A stretch of DNA of 64,000 nt from Selenomonas sp. oral taxon 892 str. F0426 (GTDB lineage: Bacteria; Bacillota; Negativicutes; Selenomonadales; Selenomonadaceae), in NCBI RefSeq assembly GCF_000468035.1, contig NZ_KI260523.1, forward strand, positions 1 through 64,000. Reading direction: 5' to 3'. Within the stretch, counting starts at the first letter, position 1, and each line of letters begins with the position of its first letter. The notes below the pieces were generated by a model. That model was not told the DNA's origin. It made no database searches and saw only the letters and a list, made by a program, of their open reading frames with translations. The translations under genes were made by a program, and so were the position numbers. Below, in pieces: positions 32,399-40,858 of this stretch.

Positions 32399-32851
32399 AT
32401 GAGTGAACACATGATGTTGACCCTGGGCGAAGTGACGGATATTTTGCGTCAAAATAAGAAAAAAGTGACGCCGCAGCGGCTTGCTGTTTATTCGGTGTTG
32501 GCTTCGTCGAAGGAACATCCTACGGCAGAAGCGCTGTATAAGGAGCTCCGCCCCAACTACCCGACGATGAGTCTTGCGACCGTTTATAAGTCGCTTGACG
32601 CATTCTGTGAGATCGGCATTGTGCGGGAGTTGAACGTGGGGGAGGAAGCCTTCCGTTATGATGCGGATATCTCAGCACATCCACATGTTCGCTGCATTGC
32701 CTGTGACAAAGTCTCAGATGTTCCCATCGCTTCGCTTCCCTCGCTTGACAAGAATGTCTCAGCGGTGACAGGATATCGCATTGTTTCTCAGCAGATGTAT
32801 TTCTTCGGCTATTGCCCGGAGTGTCAGCAGGTGAATGCGTCAGACAACTGA
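32399..32851 (+). CDS. perR: Fur-family peroxide regulator PerR
   Basis: A 150-residue DNA-binding metalloregulator. A winged helix (about 12-85, with MSLATVYKSLDAFCEIGIV as the recognition region) is followed by a dimerisation domain. Residues H40, D88, H94, H96 and D107 each stand exactly three positions after the Fe/Mn ligands H37, D85, H91, H93 and D104 of B. subtilis PerR. Asp rather than Glu at the D85 position marks PerR rather than Fur. C99/C102 and C139/C142 form the structural zinc site. Such proteins sense peroxide by metal-catalysed His oxidation and derepress defence genes. It sits alone. Confidence 0.88.
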   Translation: MSEHMMLTLGEVTDILRQNKKKVTPQRLAVYSVLASSKEHPTAEALYKELRPNYPTMSLATVYKSLDAFCEIGIVRELNVGEEAFRYDADISAHPHVRCIACDKVSDVPIASLPSLDKNVSAVTGYRIVSQQMYFFGYCPECQQVNASDN

Positions 32852-32931
32852 TCAGATACCGCTCGATGGTTTGTAAACCTTACGCTCTTCGATCGAATCA
32901 CTTGATAAGGTCTGATGAAGTATTTGAAAAC

Positions 32932-32977
32932 AAAAAGTGACATGGCCTCCTTCTTAGAGAGGACATGTCACTTTGTA
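32932..32977. terminator. terminator between perR and the AdoMetDC-like gene
   Basis: AAAGTGACATG and CATGTCACTTT pair for 11 bp, with an inner CCTC/GAGG. T-rich and A-rich flanks allow use by both converging genes. Confidence 0.75.
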
Positions 32978-32986
32978 TTTGTACTG

Positions 32987-33451
32987 TTATCCGCGATTGC
33001 GGCGAGCGAGGATGCGGATGACCTTTGCTCCCGTACTTTTAATTTTACGGATGGGGGCTACACGTGTTGTGGTCTTTGGGCGAATCTCGGCAGGGGAACG
33101 GAAATCGCCGCGCCGCAGATGGGTACTCTTTGTTTTCTCTGGCTGCAGTGCTTTGCGCATGACTTGGGCAATTGGGTCAAGTGCGGCATCTTCCGCACAA
33201 AGATAGATGTCCAGTGAGACATGACGCAGCTCTGGGTGTGTGTGGAGTGCAAGGTGTCCGTCCGGCAGAAGTGCCATCAGGGAGATGTGGCCGCTTTCCT
33301 GTACATCGCTGATGATTTGCAGGGGGATAAGATCAAGTTCTCTGAGAGCCTGGGAGACTTTTGTGCGCAATGCATCTTCATCGCTGCATTTTTCTGCTTT
33401 GCAATTATAAAAATCCACTGTCAACAATCTTGACTGAATATCCATTCGCAT
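32987..33451 (-). CDS. S-adenosylmethionine decarboxylase-like protein without the pyruvoyl serine
   Basis: A 154-residue relative of class 1b AdoMet decarboxylase (SpeH), which supplies aminopropyl groups for spermidine. The core around residues 64-85 is recognisable (DGHLALHTHPE ... VSLDIYLC). H70 and C85 align with the catalytic His68 and Cys83 of the Thermotoga enzyme, but the position of Ser63, which cleaves itself to make the pyruvoyl cofactor, is G65 (ESH becomes DGH). Without serine the usual processing cannot happen. The last 45 residues are Arg/Lys-rich, an added basic tail. It may be a regulator, a binder of SAM or nucleic acid, or a dead paralogue. Promoter at 33485-33513; no speE neighbour. 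Confidence 0.75.
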   Translation of the reverse strand: MRMDIQSRLLTVDFYNCKAEKCSDEDALRTKVSQALRELDLIPLQIISDVQESGHISLMALLPDGHLALHTHPELRHVSLDIYLCAEDAALDPIAQVMRKALQPEKTKSTHLRRGDFRSPAEIRPKTTTRVAPIRKIKSTGAKVIRILARRNRG

Positions 33452-33484
33452 CCGTCTCCTTATGCAGTTTATATAATTATTTTT

Positions 33485-33513
33485 ATTATAGAGGAAAGGC
33501 GCACATCCGTCAA
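33485..33513 (-). promoter_or_regulatory. promoter of the AdoMetDC-like gene
   Basis: On the minus strand TTGACG (33513-33508), 17 nt, TATAAT (33490-33485). Confidence 0.7.
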
Positions 33514-33704: not shown

Positions 33705-34739
33705 ATGTTTGGTCTTTTTGGTGGACACGATATGGGGATTGACCTCGGTACGGCAAATACGTTGGTGCATGTCAAGGGGCGCGGAATCGTTCTGAGAGAG
33801 CCGTCCGTTGTTGCGATAAAGAGTGATTCGGGGGATGTGCTTGCGGTAGGCGAAGAAGCAAAGCAGATGATTGGGCGCACGCCTGGCAATATCGTTGCAA
33901 TCCGTCCAATGAAGGATGGTGTCATTGCAGACTTCGATGTGACGCAGGCGATGCTGAAATATTTCATTCGCAAGGCGATGCGAGCGAAATCATTTGTACG
34001 CCCTCGTGTTGTGGTTGGAGTTCCCTCAGGTGTTACAGAGGTGGAGAAACGTGCCGTGATTGATGCCGCACAGCAGGCCGGAGCACGTGAGGCCTATCTG
34101 ATCGAAGAGCCAATGGCTGCCGCAATCGGTGCGGGACTTCCTGTGGAGGAAGCAACGGGAAGTATGGTCGTTGATATCGGTGGAGGTACGACAGAGATTG
34201 CTGTGATCTCGCTTGGCGGCATTGTGACGAGTCGCTCCATTCGTATTGGCGGTGATGAAATGGATTCGTCCATCGTGCAGTATATCAAACGAATGTATAA
34301 TCTTATGATTGGTGAGCGTACAGCAGAGGAAATCAAGATCACCGTTGGGACGGCTATCGTGACTCCAGATACTGACCGGACGATGGATATTCGCGGGCGA
34401 GATCTGGTGAGCGGTCTGCCAAAGACGCTGACCATCCATGCGAAGGAGATTCGTGAGGCGCTGAATGAGCCAATCTACAAAATCATCGATGCAGTGAAAG
34501 GAACTCTTGAAAAGACTCCGCCGGAGCTCGCTGCCGATGTCATGGATCACGGTATCATGATGACAGGCGGCGGTGCTCTCCTCATGAATCTGGATAAACT
34601 CCTCTCCCATGAGACTGGCATGCCAGTATTGGTATCCGAGGATGCACTTTCCTGTGTCGGCGAAGGAACGGGACGGACGCTTGAAAACATTGGCCTGCTC
34701 AAGAATGTTGTTATGTCCTCGAAGAAATTGAAGCAATGA
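33705..34739 (+). CDS. mreB: rod-shape protein MreB
   Basis: A 344-residue actin homologue that forms membrane-bound filaments and guides side-wall peptidoglycan synthesis. [15 protein letters not shown] is the phosphate 1 loop, [19 protein letters not shown] phosphate 2, and [15 protein letters not shown] the adenosine motif. AAGGAG lies upstream of the ATG. First gene of an eight-gene operon for elongation and division-site placement; its 3' end overlaps mreC by 4 nt. A rod-shaped or curved cell is implied. Confidence 0.97.
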
Positions 34740-35677
34740 TTGACCGAATTGGACGGGCAAGGCAGGCGGGACGCAAGATCTGGGCATTGCTTTTCGTCCT
34801 GCTTGCGCTTTTCTGTGTTATTTTCTTTGCTGCGCGCGGTCGCTTTCAGGCGACTGCGTCGACCAATACCGTGGGTACTGTGTTGGCGCCCTTTGAGATG
34901 GCCTTTTCCTATCTGGGGCAGCAGGTTCATCGTGTGACAGCGAATCTCTGGGAAATCGCTACGGTCCACGAGCAGAATAAGATGCTCAAGAATGAGATCG
35001 AACAGCTGCGGCAGCAGAACACGATGGCAGAGGAATATGCGGCGGAAAATGCACGTCTGCGTGAACTTCTTGCGTATAAGCAGTCAGCACAGCAGTTTGA
35101 TCTCCTTGCCGCGCGTGTGATCGGGAGGGATGCAGCACTCTGGACGAGTACGATCGTTGTAGATCGTGGTTCGAAGGACGGGGTGCGTGAGAACATGCCT
35201 GTGGTGACAGGCAAGGGGCTTGTGGGACGTGTGACGGAGGTTGCTCCGATCTCGTCTAAAGTTCAGCTGATCCTAGATGTGCGCTCCTCTGTTGGGACTC
35301 TCGTTCAGCGTACAGAATCTCGTGTGACAGGAATTGTCACGGGGACGATGGACAATCCCTATATGCCACAGATGGTAAACATTCCGCGCAATGCGGATGT
35401 CAAGGATGGTGATGTTGTCATTACCTCCGGATTCGGCGGGATCTATCCCAAGGGGATTCCTATAGGGCAGATTGTTTCCCAGCACAGTGATGACACTGGC
35501 CTCTTAAAGGTTGCATTGCTCGAGACGGCAGTGGATTTCCAGCGGCTCGAAGATGTTGCGATCATCACAGCATCACGAGAGGCACCGCCGGAGCCGATTC
35601 AGCCCATGCCGCTAAGTCCAGGTGCAGCAGCGGCGGCGCAGATCTCTGCAACACAGACAAAGGCGGCGGCGCAGTGA
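34736..35677 (+). CDS. mreC: rod-shape protein MreC
   Basis: A 313-residue bitopic membrane protein. One transmembrane helix (about 14-34), a coiled coil (about 65-112) and two periplasmic beta domains (from about 120; [26 protein letters not shown] is typical). It links MreB to the PBP2/RodA synthase. The C-terminal 35 residues are Ala/Pro-rich. It overlaps mreB and mreD by 4 nt each. Confidence 0.95.
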
Positions 35678-36171
35678 AGAGATATAAATTCTTTATCTTG
35701 TTTTTTGTGGTGCTCTTTATTCTCCAATTGTCTTTTTTGCCGCTCATCGCTGTGTATGGCGTGGTGCCTGACCTACTCCTTTTGGCGACCGTTTCCTATG
35801 CGTTTCTGCGCGGCAGTGTCTGGGGCGGATTCGTTGGCTTTCTTTTGGGAATGATGGAAGATCTCAGTGTAGGTTCGTTTTTTGGTCTGCATGCCTTTAC
35901 ATTGACTCTCATTGGTCTTTTCTTCGGACGATTTTCCGACCGCGTGTTCAAGGAGCAGTTCTTCTTACCAATTACAGCATCCTTGGCGGCAACTTTTGCA
36001 AAATATGTGATTTCAGCGTTTATCGTGTATTTGCTTGGCTATCATTTCAATCCGTTTTTGCATATGGGGCGCGTACTCCTGATCCTGCTTCTGTTTCAGC
36101 TGATCTTTGCGTATCCGATTCATTGGGCAACATTCCATCTCGATAAGCGCATACGCGATCCGAAGCGTTAA
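35674..36171 (+). CDS. mreD: rod-shape protein MreD
   Basis: A 165-residue polytopic membrane protein with five or six hydrophobic helices and little else, as expected for MreD. DLLLLATVSYAFLRGSVWGGFVGFLLGMMEDL is the recognisable central part. GTG start overlapping the mreC stop (GTGA), 20 nt before mrdA. The role, membrane partner of MreC in the elongasome, is inferred from family and context. Confidence 0.92.
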   Translation: MKRYKFFILFFVVLFILQLSFLPLIAVYGVVPDLLLLATVSYAFLRGSVWGGFVGFLLGMMEDLSVGSFFGLHAFTLTLIGLFFGRFSDRVFKEQFFLPITASLAATFAKYVISAFIVYLLGYHFNPFLHMGRVLLILLLFQLIFAYPIHWATFHLDKRIRDPKR

Positions 36172-36191
36172 AAAATTCTCGGAGTGTAATT

Positions 36192-37982
36192 GTGAACGAA
36201 CATGAAGATTTTAGTGGGCGCCTCCAATTTCTTAGCGCGGTAATTGTGCTTATTATTCTTGTACTGATTGGCCGTGCGGGGTATTTACAGGTTTATGACG
36301 GAGAACTCTATGCACGACTTGCTGAGGGCAATCGCATCCGCATCATACCGGCAGAAGCCGCTCGTGGGACATTTTACGATCGGAACGGAGAGCTCCTCGT
36401 TACGAATCGTCCGGGATTTGCAGTATCTCTGCTCCCTCTGACGGAGCCTATTTCTCCTGAGGTAATGGCGCGCGTATCAAAGCTCATCAATGTTCCTGTG
36501 ACTGAGATTCAGCAGAAGATTGATGCGCATGTTGGCTTCGATCCAATACGTATCAAGACTGATGTATTGCCCGATATCGTCACGATCATCGAGGAGCAGA
36601 AGGACGACTACCCCGGTGTTGTGATCGAGGTACTGCCGATCCGCGATTATATCTATGGAGAATATGCAGCGCACGTATTCGGCTATGTGAGTGAGATCAA
36701 TGAGGAGGAGCTAGAGCGTCGCAAGGACGAGGGGTATAAATCCGGCTATATTATTGGTAAGTTTGGTCTTGAGCGCATATATGACAAGGATGTCCGCGGA
36801 ATCAACGGCGGCGATCAAGTCGAAGTGGATGTATCGGGACGTCCCATACAGCTGCTTGGACGTCAGTCACCTGTACCGGGAAACGATCTCGTTTTGACTA
36901 TTGATAAGCATATCCAGGAGGCGTCAGAGCGGGCGGTTGATGAACAGCTTGCTATTGTGCATGCACATGCAGCAGCAGTCGTCGTCATGAATCCACAGAC
37001 GGGTGAGGTATTGGCAATGGTCAGCCGCCCAGCCTTTAACCCAAATCTTTTTGCGGGCGGTATCTCCACGCAGAACTGGAATGTACTGAATAACAATCCC
37101 TATCATCCGATGGACAACAAGGCGATTACAGGTGAGTATCCGCCAGGTTCGACATTTAAGATTGTAACAGGTACAGCGGCGCTCGCTGAGCATAAGGTGA
37201 CGCCGCAGGAGAAAATCTTCGACGCGGGACACCATTGGATCATTCCAAAGACAAACGCTGGTGGTGAAGCTCTAGGATGGATCAATTTTCAAGAGGCGAT
37301 GGCTCATTCTGATAATGTCTATTTTTATGAGATGGGCAATCGTCTCGGTGTCGATGCTCTTGAGCGATATGCGCGTATGTTTGGACTCGGTGAACGCACG
37401 GGAATCGATCTGCCGTATGAGGCGGAGGGGCTGGCGCCAAACCGCAAATACAAGCAGGACAACTATGAGGATGGCGAATGGTATCTTTCAGAGACGTTCG
37501 ACGCGGCGATTGGGCAGGGCTTCAATCTCGTAACACCGCTGCAGGCAGCAATGGTCATGGCAGAGATTGCAGCGAATGGAAAGCGGTATCAACCACATCT
37601 CGTTCAGCGGATCGTAGATGTCAATGGCAATACCGTGCGGGAGTTCCAGCCTAAGCTCCTATCGGAGCTGGATGTGAGTCCGACGGTGATCCGAAATGTG
37701 CAGGAAGGTCTACACGATGTTACGAAGATCGGTACGGCAGCGGGCATATTTGCCGGGTTTCCGATCGATATTGCGGGAAAGACGGGAACCGCAGAGAACT
37801 CTCAGGGCCGTGACCATGGATGGTTTGTGGCCTATGGGCCGTATGTAAATCCGAATATCGTCGTTGCGGTTATTGTGGAGCAGGGTGGTTTTGGCTCTAT
37901 GTCGGCTGTGCCGATTGGACGCAAAATCATGGAGGCGGCTTTCCGACTGGATCGTACTCCACAAAATGTAGGGAACAAGTGA
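36192..37982 (+). CDS. mrdA: penicillin-binding protein 2
   Basis: A 596-residue class B PBP, the transpeptidase of the elongasome. N-terminal transmembrane helix (about 12-32), a dimerisation/pedestal domain (about 50-220) and the transpeptidase domain with S320-TF-K323 in PPGSTFKI, SDN in HSDNVYFY, and KTGT starting at K530. It cross-links glycan strands made by RodA, encoded 3.5 kb downstream in the same operon. GTG start at 36192 after GGAG. min genes separate it from rodA. Confidence 0.96.
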   Translation: MNEHEDFSGRLQFLSAVIVLIILVLIGRAGYLQVYDGELYARLAEGNRIRIIPAEAARGTFYDRNGELLVTNRPGFAVSLLPLTEPISPEVMARVSKLINVPVTEIQQKIDAHVGFDPIRIKTDVLPDIVTIIEEQKDDYPGVVIEVLPIRDYIYGEYAAHVFGYVSEINEEELERRKDEGYKSGYIIGKFGLERIYDKDVRGINGGDQVEVDVSGRPIQLLGRQSPVPGNDLVLTIDKHIQEASERAVDEQLAIVHAHAAAVVVMNPQTGEVLAMVSRPAFNPNLFAGGISTQNWNVLNNNPYHPMDNKAITGEYPPGSTFKIVTGTAALAEHKVTPQEKIFDAGHHWIIPKTNAGGEALGWINFQEAMAHSDNVYFYEMGNRLGVDALERYARMFGLGERTGIDLPYEAEGLAPNRKYKQDNYEDGEWYLSETFDAAIGQGFNLVTPLQAAMVMAEIAANGKRYQPHLVQRIVDVNGNTVREFQPKLLSELDVSPTVIRNVQEGLHDVTKIGTAAGIFAGFPIDIAGKTGTAENSQGRDHGWFVAYGPYVNPNIVVAVIVEQGGFGSMSAVPIGRKIMEAAFRLDRTPQNVGNK

Positions 37983-37991
37983 GGGACGGAA

Positions 37992-38651
37992 ATGAGCGAG
38001 GATAAGATCAAGATCAAAGGAGAAAATGACGGGCTTATGCTCGGCTTCCCCGCCGATATATCCTTTTCAGAAATCATAGAGGAACTCGAGAAAAAGTTGG
38101 AGTCTGGATCCGGGTTCTTCTTGCGCGGCACACTGGTACGTGTCCCGCGAGATTTTTTTACAAAAGAAGAGCTGGCTCAGATGCAGGAGCTTTTTCGGTC
38201 GCATGGACTCATTTGCCGTTTGGCAAAGCCAGAGCCGGCCGCTCCCCTCACTCCACCCGCTGACGAGCATCGGGTACAGATTTCTGAAACACCTAAGTTG
38301 ACAGCGCAGGACACGCAGGAGCTGCAGCGTATGCTCATCATTGACAAGACGCTGCGCGGCGGCCAAGCGGTGGAGACAGAGGGCTCTGTCATTGTATTTG
38401 GTAATGTCAACCCGGGAGCTCAGATCACGGCAGGCGGCAGTGTGGACATTCGCGGAACATGTCGCGGTGTCGTGCATGCGGGGGCAGCGGGGGATTCGAC
38501 TGCGTTTATCATTGCAGATCATCTTATGCCGACACAGATTCGGATTGCAAACTATGTGGCGCGCTCGCCGGATGAACCGGAGGACTCCGGAAAGGCAGAA
38601 CGCGCCTATGTCAGAGATGGTCAGATAGTCATTGAGCCAATAGAGAGGTAG
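37992..38651 (+). CDS. minC: septum-site protein MinC
   Basis: A 219-residue inhibitor of FtsZ assembly at the cell poles. The N-terminal domain (about 1-75) precedes a Pro-rich linker (about 76-95) and the C-terminal beta-helix (about 110-205), with GGQAVETEGSVIVFGNVNPGA and the MinD-contact stretch IRGTCRGVVHAGA. Starts 9 nt after mrdA and is followed by minD. Confidence 0.93.
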   Translation: MSEDKIKIKGENDGLMLGFPADISFSEIIEELEKKLESGSGFFLRGTLVRVPRDFFTKEELAQMQELFRSHGLICRLAKPEPAAPLTPPADEHRVQISETPKLTAQDTQELQRMLIIDKTLRGGQAVETEGSVIVFGNVNPGAQITAGGSVDIRGTCRGVVHAGAAGDSTAFIIADHLMPTQIRIANYVARSPDEPEDSGKAERAYVRDGQIVIEPIER

Positions 38652-38660
38652 GTTCGAAAT

Positions 38661-39455
38661 ATGAGTGTGATCTATGTGGTGACATCGGGAAAGGGTGGCG
38701 TCGGCAAGACGACAACGACCGCGAATCTAGGGGTAGGCTTTGCCATGCGTGGCAAGAGTGTTGTCCTCATTGACACGGACACGGGGCTCAGGAATCTCGA
38801 CCTCCTGCTCGGCCTCGAGAACCGCATCATGTACGATTTGGTCGATGTGACTTCGGGACGAGTGCCCTACAAGAAGGCACTCGTAAGACATAAGAAATAT
38901 GATTCTCTTTTCCTCTTGCCAACATCACAGGTTAAAGATAAAAGCGCGGTGAATCCCGAGGAGCTTGCGGCTCTCTGTGAGGAGCTTCGTCGCTCCTATG
39001 ATGTCATTATTATTGACTGCCCTGCGGGGATTGAGCAGGGGTTTCAAACGGCCATTGCGGCTGCCGATACGGCAATTGTGGTGACGATGCCCGAAATCTC
39101 AGCCGTACGTGATGCAGACAAGATTATTGGTGAACTTGGTCGTGCTGACAAAGATGATATCCGCCTTGTTGTGAATCGTATTCGCCCGAAGATGATTGAA
39201 AAAGGCGATATGCTTGATATGGAAGATATCGATGAGATCCTTTCGGTCGGATGCATTGGCCAGATTCCAGATGATGAGATGGTCGTGACGAGTACCAACC
39301 GCGGTGAACCGTGTGTAACCATGCCGGATTCTCCTGCGGGACAGGCGTATCTGGATGTGGTGGGACGTCTCTCGGGTGAGGAGATACCGTTCCGCGAGTT
39401 TGCGAAGGAAAGTCTCTGGGAGACGATCAAGGGCAAGCTCTTTGGGAAAAAGTAA
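38661..39455 (+). CDS. minD: septum-site ATPase MinD
   Basis: A 264-residue deviant-Walker ATPase. GKGGVGKTTTTANLG (about 10-24) is the P-loop with the signature lysine. DTDTGLRNLDLLLGLE and IIDCPAGIEQGF (Walker B) follow. The last residues (FAKESLWETIKGKLFGKK) form the amphipathic membrane-targeting helix. It recruits MinC to the membrane and cycles with MinE. Confidence 0.97.
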   Translation: MSVIYVVTSGKGGVGKTTTTANLGVGFAMRGKSVVLIDTDTGLRNLDLLLGLENRIMYDLVDVTSGRVPYKKALVRHKKYDSLFLLPTSQVKDKSAVNPEELAALCEELRRSYDVIIIDCPAGIEQGFQTAIAAADTAIVVTMPEISAVRDADKIIGELGRADKDDIRLVVNRIRPKMIEKGDMLDMEDIDEILSVGCIGQIPDDEMVVTSTNRGEPCVTMPDSPAGQAYLDVVGRLSGEEIPFREFAKESLWETIKGKLFGKK

Positions 39456-39467
39456 GGAGGTTCCGGT

Positions 39468-39755
39468 GTGATTGAGGCACTCAAAAGGCTTCTTGGGAAA
39501 AAGGAAAGTTCCGGCGATGTTGCGCGCCGCCGCCTCCAGCTCGTTATCATCAACGATCGGGCGAACGTCTCCCCAGAAATCATGGACAATATGCGCGCAG
39601 AAATCATCCAGGTGATCTCGAAATACATGTATATCGATACACGGGAGATGGAGTTCGCGCTCGAAAACGAGAATGATACAATGGCGCTCGTCGTCAATAT
39701 TCCTGTTGTCAGTGTACAGCATGGTGGCAGCGATCTCTCAAGGCGTCGGCGATGA
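39468..39755 (+). CDS. minE: MinD-activating protein MinE
   Basis: A 95-residue topological specificity factor. The N-terminal segment (IEALKRLLGKKESSG) is membrane-binding, and RRRLQLVIINDRANVSPEIM contains the MinD-contact helix/strand that triggers ATP hydrolysis and pole-to-pole oscillation. GTG start after AGGAGG. The stop overlaps the rodA start by 4 nt (ATGA). Presence of MinE indicates an oscillating Min system rather than DivIVA-based placement. Confidence 0.93.
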   Translation: MIEALKRLLGKKESSGDVARRRLQLVIINDRANVSPEIMDNMRAEIIQVISKYMYIDTREMEFALENENDTMALVVNIPVVSVQHGGSDLSRRRR

Positions 39756-40858
39756 TAATCTCGAAAAGGCTCCTGCGGCGCACGGACCTGACGCTCATTG
39801 CAGCAACGGCTGCAATCGTCATCATGAGTCTTATCATCATTGGCAGCGCAACGCATGTCAATACGCCGAGTGAGGAGCGTTACTGGTTTGTCCAGCGCCA
39901 GGGGATTTCGATCATCGTAGATATTGCCCTTGCTGCATTTCTGATGAACTTTGACTATAAGATCTTGCAGCGCTATGGCAACCACTTCTATGTGTTTAAC
40001 CTGATTTTACTGATCTTGGTCATGCTGGTCGGGCAGACAGCACTTGGTGCACAGCGGTGGATCGCACTCGGTCCCATCAGCATACAGCCATCAGAGTTCT
40101 CAAAACTCATCATGATTATTGCGCTTGCCGCTATGATGGAAAAGCGTGGTAAGATACAAAGCCTTACCGATCTTGCTCCGATTGCCGGGTATGTTGCGGT
40201 TCCGTTTTTACTCGTTCTGAAGCAGCCTGACCTTGGCACATCACTTGTTTTTCTTGCAATCTTCCTGGGCATGGTCTTTGTTGCTGGAATTCGTCTGCGA
40301 ATCCTCTTTGGCATTTTTGGACTTGGACTTGCAGCAATGCCTGTGCTCTGGCATTTTCTCAAGGACTATCAAAAAATGCGCATCATGGTTTTCTTGGATC
40401 CAAATGTCGATCCTCTTGGTGCGGGCTATCATATCATCCAGTCAAAGATTGCAATTGGATCGGGACTTCTGTTCGGAAAAGGGCTTTTTGGCGGAACGCA
40501 GAGCCAGCTGAACTTCTTGCCCGAAAACCATACTGACTTCATCTTTTCGGTTGTGGGAGAGGAGCTGGGGTTCGTTGGATGTGCCATTCTCCTGCTGCTT
40601 TATCTCATCGTTCTCTGGCGCGGTGTTAAGATTGCGCGGGATGCGAGTGATACGTTCGGACGTCTGCTTGCCGTCGGAATCACCTCGATGATTGCATTCC
40701 ATGTTCTTATCAATGTCGGGATGACGATGGGCATCATGCCTGTTACTGGGATTCCGCTGCCGCTCATGAGTTATGGAGTAAGTTCACTCACAACGAACAT
40801 CATGGCAATCGCGATTCTGCTGAATATTCAGCTGCGGCGGCAAAAGTTGTTGTTTTAG
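39752..40858 (+). CDS. rodA: RodA peptidoglycan glycosyltransferase (SEDS family)
   Basis: A 368-residue SEDS membrane protein with about ten transmembrane helices. GAQRWIALGPISIQPSEFSK and the late ENHTDFIFSVVGEELGFVG are hallmark sequences; the Asp in the latter region is essential in the family. PLPLMSYGVSS lies near the C-terminus. It polymerises lipid II with PBP2 from the same operon. Overlaps minE; a terminator follows. Confidence 0.95.
   Translation: MIISKRLLRRTDLTLIAATAAIVIMSLIIIGSATHVNTPSEERYWFVQRQGISIIVDIALAAFLMNFDYKILQRYGNHFYVFNLILLILVMLVGQTALGAQRWIALGPISIQPSEFSKLIMIIALAAMMEKRGKIQSLTDLAPIAGYVAVPFLLVLKQPDLGTSLVFLAIFLGMVFVAGIRLRILFGIFGLGLAAMPVLWHFLKDYQKMRIMVFLDPNVDPLGAGYHIIQSKIAIGSGLLFGKGLFGGTQSQLNFLPENHTDFIFSVVGEELGFVGCAILLLLYLIVLWRGVKIARDASDTFGRLLAVGITSMIAFHVLINVGMTMGIMPVTGIPLPLMSYGVSSLTTNIMAIAILLNIQLRRQKLLF

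Follow-up and report, generated by a model that had tools for sequence, protein, structure and literature searches.

Background

The AdoMet decarboxylase (AdoMetDC) of T. maritima, a class 1b SpeD/SpeH protein represented by the structures 1tlu, 1vr7 and 1tmi, is presumably a dimer, and its Phe49 is taken here to be the residue that stacks on the adenine. In trypanosomatids, the AdoMetDC prozyme is a catalytically dead paralogue which regulates an active partner, and the N-terminal domain of human spermine synthase is likewise an inactive AdoMetDC domain (PMC5201418); both cases indicate that the AdoMetDC fold can be re-used without catalysis. According to PMC10407285, a duplicate of SpeD may turn into an ornithine or arginine decarboxylase, and in a SpeD fusion of Victivallis the degraded second domain has lost active-site residues and cannot self-cleave.

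The protein described here is encoded within a window of 64,000 nucleotides, by which we mean the whole stretch of DNA that was analysed. It resembles the T. maritima enzyme in its fold and in the spacing of His68 and Cys83, but it lacks the pyruvoyl serine and the Phe at the Phe49 column, and it carries an extra basic tail. As in the trypanosomatid prozyme, we are presumably dealing with a dead AdoMetDC paralogue, yet the tailed protein persists where no other AdoMetDC match is found, and the trypanosome proteins belong to a larger, eukaryotic class. In human spermine synthase the inactive domain belongs to an aminopropyltransferase, whereas the tailed protein stands alone with its basic tail; the neofunctionalised SpeD decarboxylases are pyruvoyl-dependent, unlike this serine-less protein; and the degraded domain of Victivallis is fused to an active SpeD, whereas the tailed protein is free-standing. 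AdoMetDC pseudoenzymes are thus already known as a kind, but to our knowledge no earlier bacterial one is known as a free-standing, class-wide protein, and the present one is apparently the first. We propose, with a probability of about one half, that it is a pseudoenzyme scaffold, namely a duplicate of class 1b AdoMetDC whose basic tail attaches it to a partner of anionic or acidic character and which has lost catalysis several times.

No description of the tailed protein was found in the open-access PMC papers searched, including passages of PMC10628300, PMC10407285, PMC6529473, PMC11999265 and PMC5201418. The main text of PMC10407285 contains none of the strings "Selenomon", "Negativicutes" and "Firmicutes", and the available part of PMC11999265, in which a Sporomusa ovata aminopropyltransferase is used in a spermine study, does not mention the tailed protein.

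Results and Discussion

The gene, its signals and its domain

By its promoter, ribosome-binding site and hairpin (Table 1), the tailed gene looks like a working unit. The preliminary description of this DNA had credited it with a strong promoter of its own, which holds for the motif itself (TTGACG-17-TATAAT, 11/12) but not for the number of sites: the promoter scan gives 2 such sites within 1 kb, where shuffled sequence would yield 1.6, about as many, so that the promoter draws its support from quality and position. The terminator-like stem-loop lies between the tailed gene and a convergent gene at 32399-32851, and a consensus terminator scan listed nothing at that place. The divergent neighbour is a series of mreB-mreC-mreD-pbp2-minC-minD-minE-rodA-like genes at 33705-40858, named by reading and not by a family scan.

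Table 1. Coordinates of the tailed gene, its parts and its flanking signals in the window
Feature	Position	Strand	Basis
ORF of the AdoMet-decarboxylase homologue (serine-less, with a basic tail at the C-terminus)	32987..33451	minus	154 aa, ATG start
AdoMetDC-like domain, residues 10-115	33107..33424	minus	PF02675 73.1 bits (genome search); fold match 1vr7/1tlu, Z ~17, 117 residues
Gly65 codon GGA, aligned with the pyruvoyl serine Ser63 of T. maritima	33257..33259	minus	alignment; codon read
Conserved basic C-terminal tail, LRRGDF...APIRKIKSTGAKVIRILARR	32990..33118	minus	tail profile A1, 67.2 bits, E 3.2e-18
Extra predicted strand, residues 126-131	33059..33076	minus	AlphaFold2 model; equivalent 124-129 in serine-bearing L086
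C-terminal helix, residues 140-152, predicted to be basic and amphipathic	32996..33034	minus	AlphaFold2 (block pLDDT 62-74); amphipathicity test
Sigma-70-type promoter TTGACG-17-TATAAT, 11/12	33485..33513	minus	promoter motif scan
Ribosome-binding site AAGGAG, 4 nt before ATG	33456..33461	minus	read from sequence
Stem-loop and T-run past stop codon, terminator-like	32928..32980	minus	fold -24.3 kcal/mol, z -5.9

The 154-aa ORF scores 72.5 bits against PF02675 (Pfam AdoMet_dc; cut-off 25), and 62.3 bits, below the cut-off of 75.65, against the NCBIfam equivalog of class 1b AdoMetDC, TIGR03330. A phmmer alignment of residues 7-117 to the T. maritima enzyme (1tlu) bears out two points of the preliminary description: Gly65 stands opposite Ser63, and His70 and Cys85 stand opposite His68 and Cys83 with their spacing kept. 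At the Phe49 position the residue is not Phe by either alignment (Gln51 in the MAFFT column, Val50 by phmmer). The AlphaFold2 model, built with 58 sequences, has a mean pLDDT of 85.2, and its best structural match is again the T. maritima enzyme (Foldseek E 8.7e-10 to 1tlu; VIA fold match to 1vr7/1tlu with Z 16.7-16.9 and rmsd 2.6-2.7 over 117 residues, the higher values being those of 1vr7); the S63A non-processing mutant, 1tmi, and human spermine synthase, 3c6k (Z 11.7 over 99 residues), are also among the fold matches. Established enzymology implies that a protein with Gly at this site would not be self-processed. The model extends past the end of the T. maritima enzyme with the strand and the helix listed in Table 1.

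Loss of the serine and decay of the pocket

The absence of the serine, which the preliminary description had presented as a property of this protein, is real but not peculiar to one gene, as 144 of 172 non-identical homologues in the class lack it. In these counts, any row outside the 8 canonical rows is taken as tailed, and 3 of 183 rows were dropped beforehand, namely the two frames of the frameshifted L174 and the class-1a-like L002. The Ser63 column of the 172 homologues holds S in 28, G in 108, C in 12, F in 10, A in 9 and T in 5, where ESH members are over-represented since the loci L003-L032 were chosen as the best PF02675 scores. Where the preliminary description proposed to look for DGH instead of ESH among the homologues, Gly is the commonest residue at the site, Cys, Phe, Ala and Thr also occur there, and the deep branches have ESH.

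The full ESH motif is present in 22 of the 28 serine-bearing homologues, 19 of which also have His68 and Cys83. The other six, with DSH, GSH, KSH, QSH and twice NSH, all lack Cys83; these are L204, L205 and L211 of family f33 (NSH, NSH and QSH) and L061-L063 of families f34 and f32 (GSH, DSH and KSH), and some of them are read by parsimony as regains of the serine without enzyme function.

The substrate residues follow the serine. All 8 canonical enzymes and 21 of 22 ESH members retain Phe49, compared to 10 of the 144 serine-less members. The Ser55 and Glu72 columns likewise turn variable in serine-less members. By contrast, the equivalents of His68 and Cys83 often stay (138 and 106 of the serine-less members, with Cys83 changed to Phe in 35; 166 and 125 of all 172). 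The pocket has thus decayed, though not everywhere, and the survival of these two residues could mean that it is still used, which counts against a pseudoenzyme scaffold.

Such residual conservation also bears on a possible role as a small-molecule sensor, whereby a ligand bound in the emptied pocket (SAM, its decarboxylated form or a polyamine) would switch the hold of the tail on RNA, DNA or protein. His68 and Cys83 remain in most serine-less members, as counted above, and human AdoMetDC structures bind putrescine, to judge by the titles of the structure entries. On the other side, the pocket is altered beyond the serine (non-Phe at the Phe49 column in 134 of 144, a variable Glu72, Phe for Cys83 in 35 of 144), and the protein also occurs in genomes with no other PF02675 match and no speE match, and we therefore regard the sensor as possible but rather doubtful.

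History of the serine states

A tree was built from 104 rows of less than 80% identity, leaving out the motif columns 64-66 and rooting on a single canonical row; many of its forks are weakly supported. On this tree the serine and non-serine states need 8 changes. With serine at the root, the most parsimonious solutions have 3-4 losses, the remainder being regains, and 13 losses are needed when regain is forbidden. The deep branches retain ESH, and the residue at position 63 differs (G, C, F, A or T) from branch to branch, even between close branches. The window protein belongs to a clade of 50 rows with Gly throughout, the serine members being placed elsewhere, and the window copy is intact; the combination of serine-bearing homologues in the same clade with a frameshift in this gene, which would have marked it as a pseudogene, is thus not what is found.

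The basic tail

The basic C-terminal tail noticed in the preliminary description is borne out, since of the last 43 residues 14 are K/R and 2 are D/E (net charge about +12), and it is highly conserved. Its consensus among relatives reads xKRGDFGSxxDMKPKxKxxxAPLRRxxNTGAKVxxxL, and it occurs in serine-bearing as well as serine-less branches. As the serine-bearing deep branches share it, the tail is older than the losses of the serine. Among 64 sequences its net charge lies between 6 and 22 with a mean of +11.8, compared to -4.0 in the domain.

Both measures of constraint place the tail above the domain. The mean information is 2.78 bits per column in the tail versus 2.03 in the domain (effective number about 60), and dN/dS among 13 intact copies of the genus (78 pairs) is 0.034 for the tail, 0.114 for the domain and 0.095 overall, values which are rough because the mean dS between congeners is about 1.1-1.4 and 13 of the 78 tail pairs are saturated. 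By these comparisons, the tail is the part most guarded by selection. The conserved residues of the tail include the non-basic Asp116, Phe117, Pro125 and Gly141, which favor a specific contact over loose charge binding.

The predicted structure of the tail recurs in an ESH relative, L086 of Lucifera butyrica, whose AlphaFold2 model (mean pLDDT 88.1) repeats the strand and the helix; across the two models, one serine-less and one ESH, the block of the tail helix has a pLDDT of 59-74. The helix segment is amphipathic at 100 degrees, at a mean percentile of 0.82 against its own shuffles (63 sequences of less than 70% identity) compared to 0.30-0.55 at other angles, although this is a trend, with a third of the 63 sequences above the 90th percentile and the window helix at 0.76. 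A search for a known relative of the tail, with profile A1 against PDB sequences, gave 4 weak matches, the best at 8.7e-05 without a stretch that passes alone and one of them a de novo-designed protein, and such a relationship was set aside.

The distribution of constraint along the protein also weighs on the idea of an enzyme with a new, non-pyruvoyl chemistry in the same pocket. The invariance of Cys17 and Arg114 (172/172) and the near-invariance of His64 (171/172, as for Asp79) and of His68 would suit it. Cys17 and Arg114, however, lie in stretches common to the canonical rows and may be structural, position 63 varies even between close branches in a manner unlike that of a catalytic residue, and the strongest constraint is in the tail rather than in the pocket. 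New chemistry is thus unlikely.

Distribution and retention

Relatives were gathered from whole genomes and from a scan of GTDB contigs, in which 135 stretches had one of two peptide patterns, 101 were confirmed and 80 were kept. We take 78 of these 80 to be Negativicutes by their taxa, the other 2 being labelled only as "Bacillota bacterium"; the class is accordingly inferred to be Negativicutes, and the family of the window (f1) to be Selenomonadaceae or near it. The tail profile A1 matches 355 of 380 class genomes and 228 of 234 good ones, nearly always in one copy. The tail of the window (Table 1) is the single match in its own genome and is itself among the 37 rows of A1. Of 398 genomes sampled from the phylum, 17 match; 14 of these are class members (E <=1.1e-14), and the three outside the class give marginal matches to part of the profile (E from 7.6e-5 to 3.4e-4), two of them with internal stop codons.

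No match to the tail profile is found in 25 of the 380 class genomes. A search of nine genomes with the full-length profile, allowing E up to 1, found nothing in the fairly complete G002, G011 and G274 and only a scrap at a contig edge in G278. The gene can thus be lost and is not indispensable, although absence from a draft genome may be a gap. Within the genus, the tailed gene is present in 14 of 14 genomes, with one copy, that of the congener G126 (L174/L175, G126:C1:161501-161961), split over two frames by a real frameshift or an assembly error.

That frameshifted copy and the 25 class genomes without a tail match are what a decaying relic would predict. Against this stand the presence in all genomes of the genus, the dN/dS of 0.095 (78 pairs of 13 intact copies), the class-wide retention and the presence of promoter, ribosome-binding site and terminator-like hairpin, such that a relic deserves hardly any credence; the retention and the dN/dS together rule against it, in agreement with the preliminary description, which judged the gene probably not a relic.

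Relation to spermidine synthesis

A second SpeD with an intact serine, which the preliminary description had proposed to look for, is present in the same genome outside the window (283 aa, DKSH, G000:C12:266576-267424). It appears to be class-1a-like, an assignment made from length and motif and not from a TIGR03331 scan. The genome also has a speE match. The active partner in the window's family is a divergent, class-1a-like type of SpeD. With this genome's own class-1a-like SpeD as the query, matches were found in 98 of the 189 family genomes, and no g21 genome is among them. In two genomes the class-1a-like SpeD is in two pieces (G144:C1:2443184-2445229, with stop codons in one piece, and G180:C111:3286-4066), which reflects either possible loss of the enzyme or draft errors.

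A single PF02675 match is found in 140 of the 355 tail-bearing genomes; contiguous coordinates identify this sole match as the tailed gene itself in some of the 140, and it is taken to be so in the rest. Of these genomes, 79 have speE above the cut-off, 54 have no speE match and 7 have a weak one. Among genomes of at least 90% completeness, the single match occurs in 78 of 246 tail-bearing genomes (speE in 42, none in 34, weak in 2). The split was compiled by hand from three genome searches, whose totals of 312, 355 and 366 agree with the tallies; the completeness list consists of 252 genomes with completeness as the only criterion, and this list and the split by one or more PF02675 matches lack a tally for comparison. 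A sole AdoMetDC-type match in 140 genomes, 54 of them without speE, speaks against a general role as a prozyme or in spermidine synthesis.

Regulation of an active SpeD by a prozyme-like subunit, as in trypanosomatids, would agree with the intact-serine SpeD of the same genome and with the appearance of chains of the T. brucei AdoMetDC/prozyme heterodimer among the fold matches (5tvf_B, Z 11.5; 6bm7_E, Z 8.6; a chain which may be either partner). The co-occurrence with an active AdoMetDC in this genome is nevertheless not family-wide: the 140 genomes have no other PF02675 match, and the class-1a-like SpeD reaches 98 of 189 family genomes and none of g21, whereas all 22 g21 genomes carry the tail. 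Little probability is therefore left for a prozyme.

A related proposal is that the protein supports SpeE by providing decarboxylated SAM through an unknown route in speE genomes which have no other SpeD, for which the 79 tail-bearing genomes with speE above the cut-off and no other PF02675 match may be quoted. The 54 further genomes that lack both a speE match and any other PF02675 match, and the decay of the substrate residues along with the serine, make support of SpeE very improbable.

The g21 genomes present an observation of their own, in that speE was found in 5 of 5 sampled while no g21 genome is among the matches to the class-1a-like SpeD. At L226 (206-3773, G254:C5), a locus with speE and no other SpeD, speE lies between Orn/Lys/Arg decarboxylase-like and carboxyspermidine-type (saccharopine-like) dehydrogenase-like genes, as named by reading and not by a family scan. 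Such an aminopropyltransferase would have no evident supply of decarboxylated SAM. The adjoining dehydrogenase-like gene makes another route possible, as judged from the reading of this one locus.

Neighboring genes and physiological context

No neighbor spans the class as a constant gene partner among the 72 and 142 loci for which neighbors were clustered. In the set of 142, lgt precedes the tailed gene in the same orientation at 37 loci; 24 loci have a nitronate-monooxygenase gene upstream but oppositely oriented, and at 15 a menaquinone-biosynthesis gene follows in the same orientation, these families being assigned from representatives. The mreB-neighborhood genes have no match in the flanks of the other 71 compared loci, which cover about 1.5-4 kb and are often cut by contig ends.

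A polyaminated cell wall together with OmpM is described as a trait of Negativicutes (PMC10628300). Genes with SLH domains, used here as a proxy for OmpM, are present in 9 of 9 genomes, that is, in G002, G011, G274 and G278 as well as in five genomes with the tailed gene; their retention in genomes without the tailed gene indicates no co-loss, which speaks neither for nor against a link to this trait. In Veillonella parvula, an "s-adenosylmethionine decarboxylase proenzyme", Vpar_0438, is listed as changed in coaggregation (PMC6529473); it may or may not be the tailed gene. A search of the open-access PMC literature found no transposon-essentiality study of Veillonella.

A possible mechanism and its implications

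The sequence data show repeated serine loss, purifying selection, class-wide and nearly always single-copy retention, a tail which both kinds of branches share and on which constraint is stronger than on the active site, as well as occurrence in genomes that have no other genes of spermidine synthesis. In the scaffold that we propose, an old duplicate of a class 1b AdoMet decarboxylase would have gained the basic tail of 40 residues at or before the base of the class. The job borne by the tail would then have become the selected one, after which the pyruvoyl serine could be lost several times. The present protein may be an uncut dimer like the T. maritima enzyme, displaying two tails, each with a strand and a basic amphipathic helix. 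Through these tails the acidic domain may be attached to a partner that is polyanionic or acidic, for which RNA or the ribosome is our first guess from charge and size, followed by a specific protein and then by the inner membrane, which the amphipathic helix makes possible. Once docked, the protein would act as a non-catalytic scaffold or regulator.

The annotation of these proteins has practical consequences. In a scan of 9 tailed relatives with TIGR03330, L050, L054, L068 and L062 fail, while the ESH proteins L020, L018 and L025 pass together with the serine-less L031 (127.0) and L071 (105.5); 2 of the 6 serine-less proteins scanned, including that of the window, are thus above the NCBIfam AdoMetDC cut-off of 75.65. 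Database names may therefore mislead, and a step of spermidine synthesis may be attributed to genomes which do not have it.

More tentatively, and with less confidence than in the scaffold itself, one may suggest that an enzyme was captured at the root of the class as a carrier of the tail, that the tail became a class-defining function while catalysis was dropped in parallel, and that the protein might serve as a class-specific, near-universal tether; its polyanionic target would be the ribosome/RNA, the nucleoid or the inner membrane, which it may couple to the polyamine pool. The tail and the domain can be disrupted separately, which offers an experimental handle. The repeated loss of the serine under a fixed tail, in a near-universal protein of the class, would represent a natural experiment in the evolution from enzyme to scaffold.
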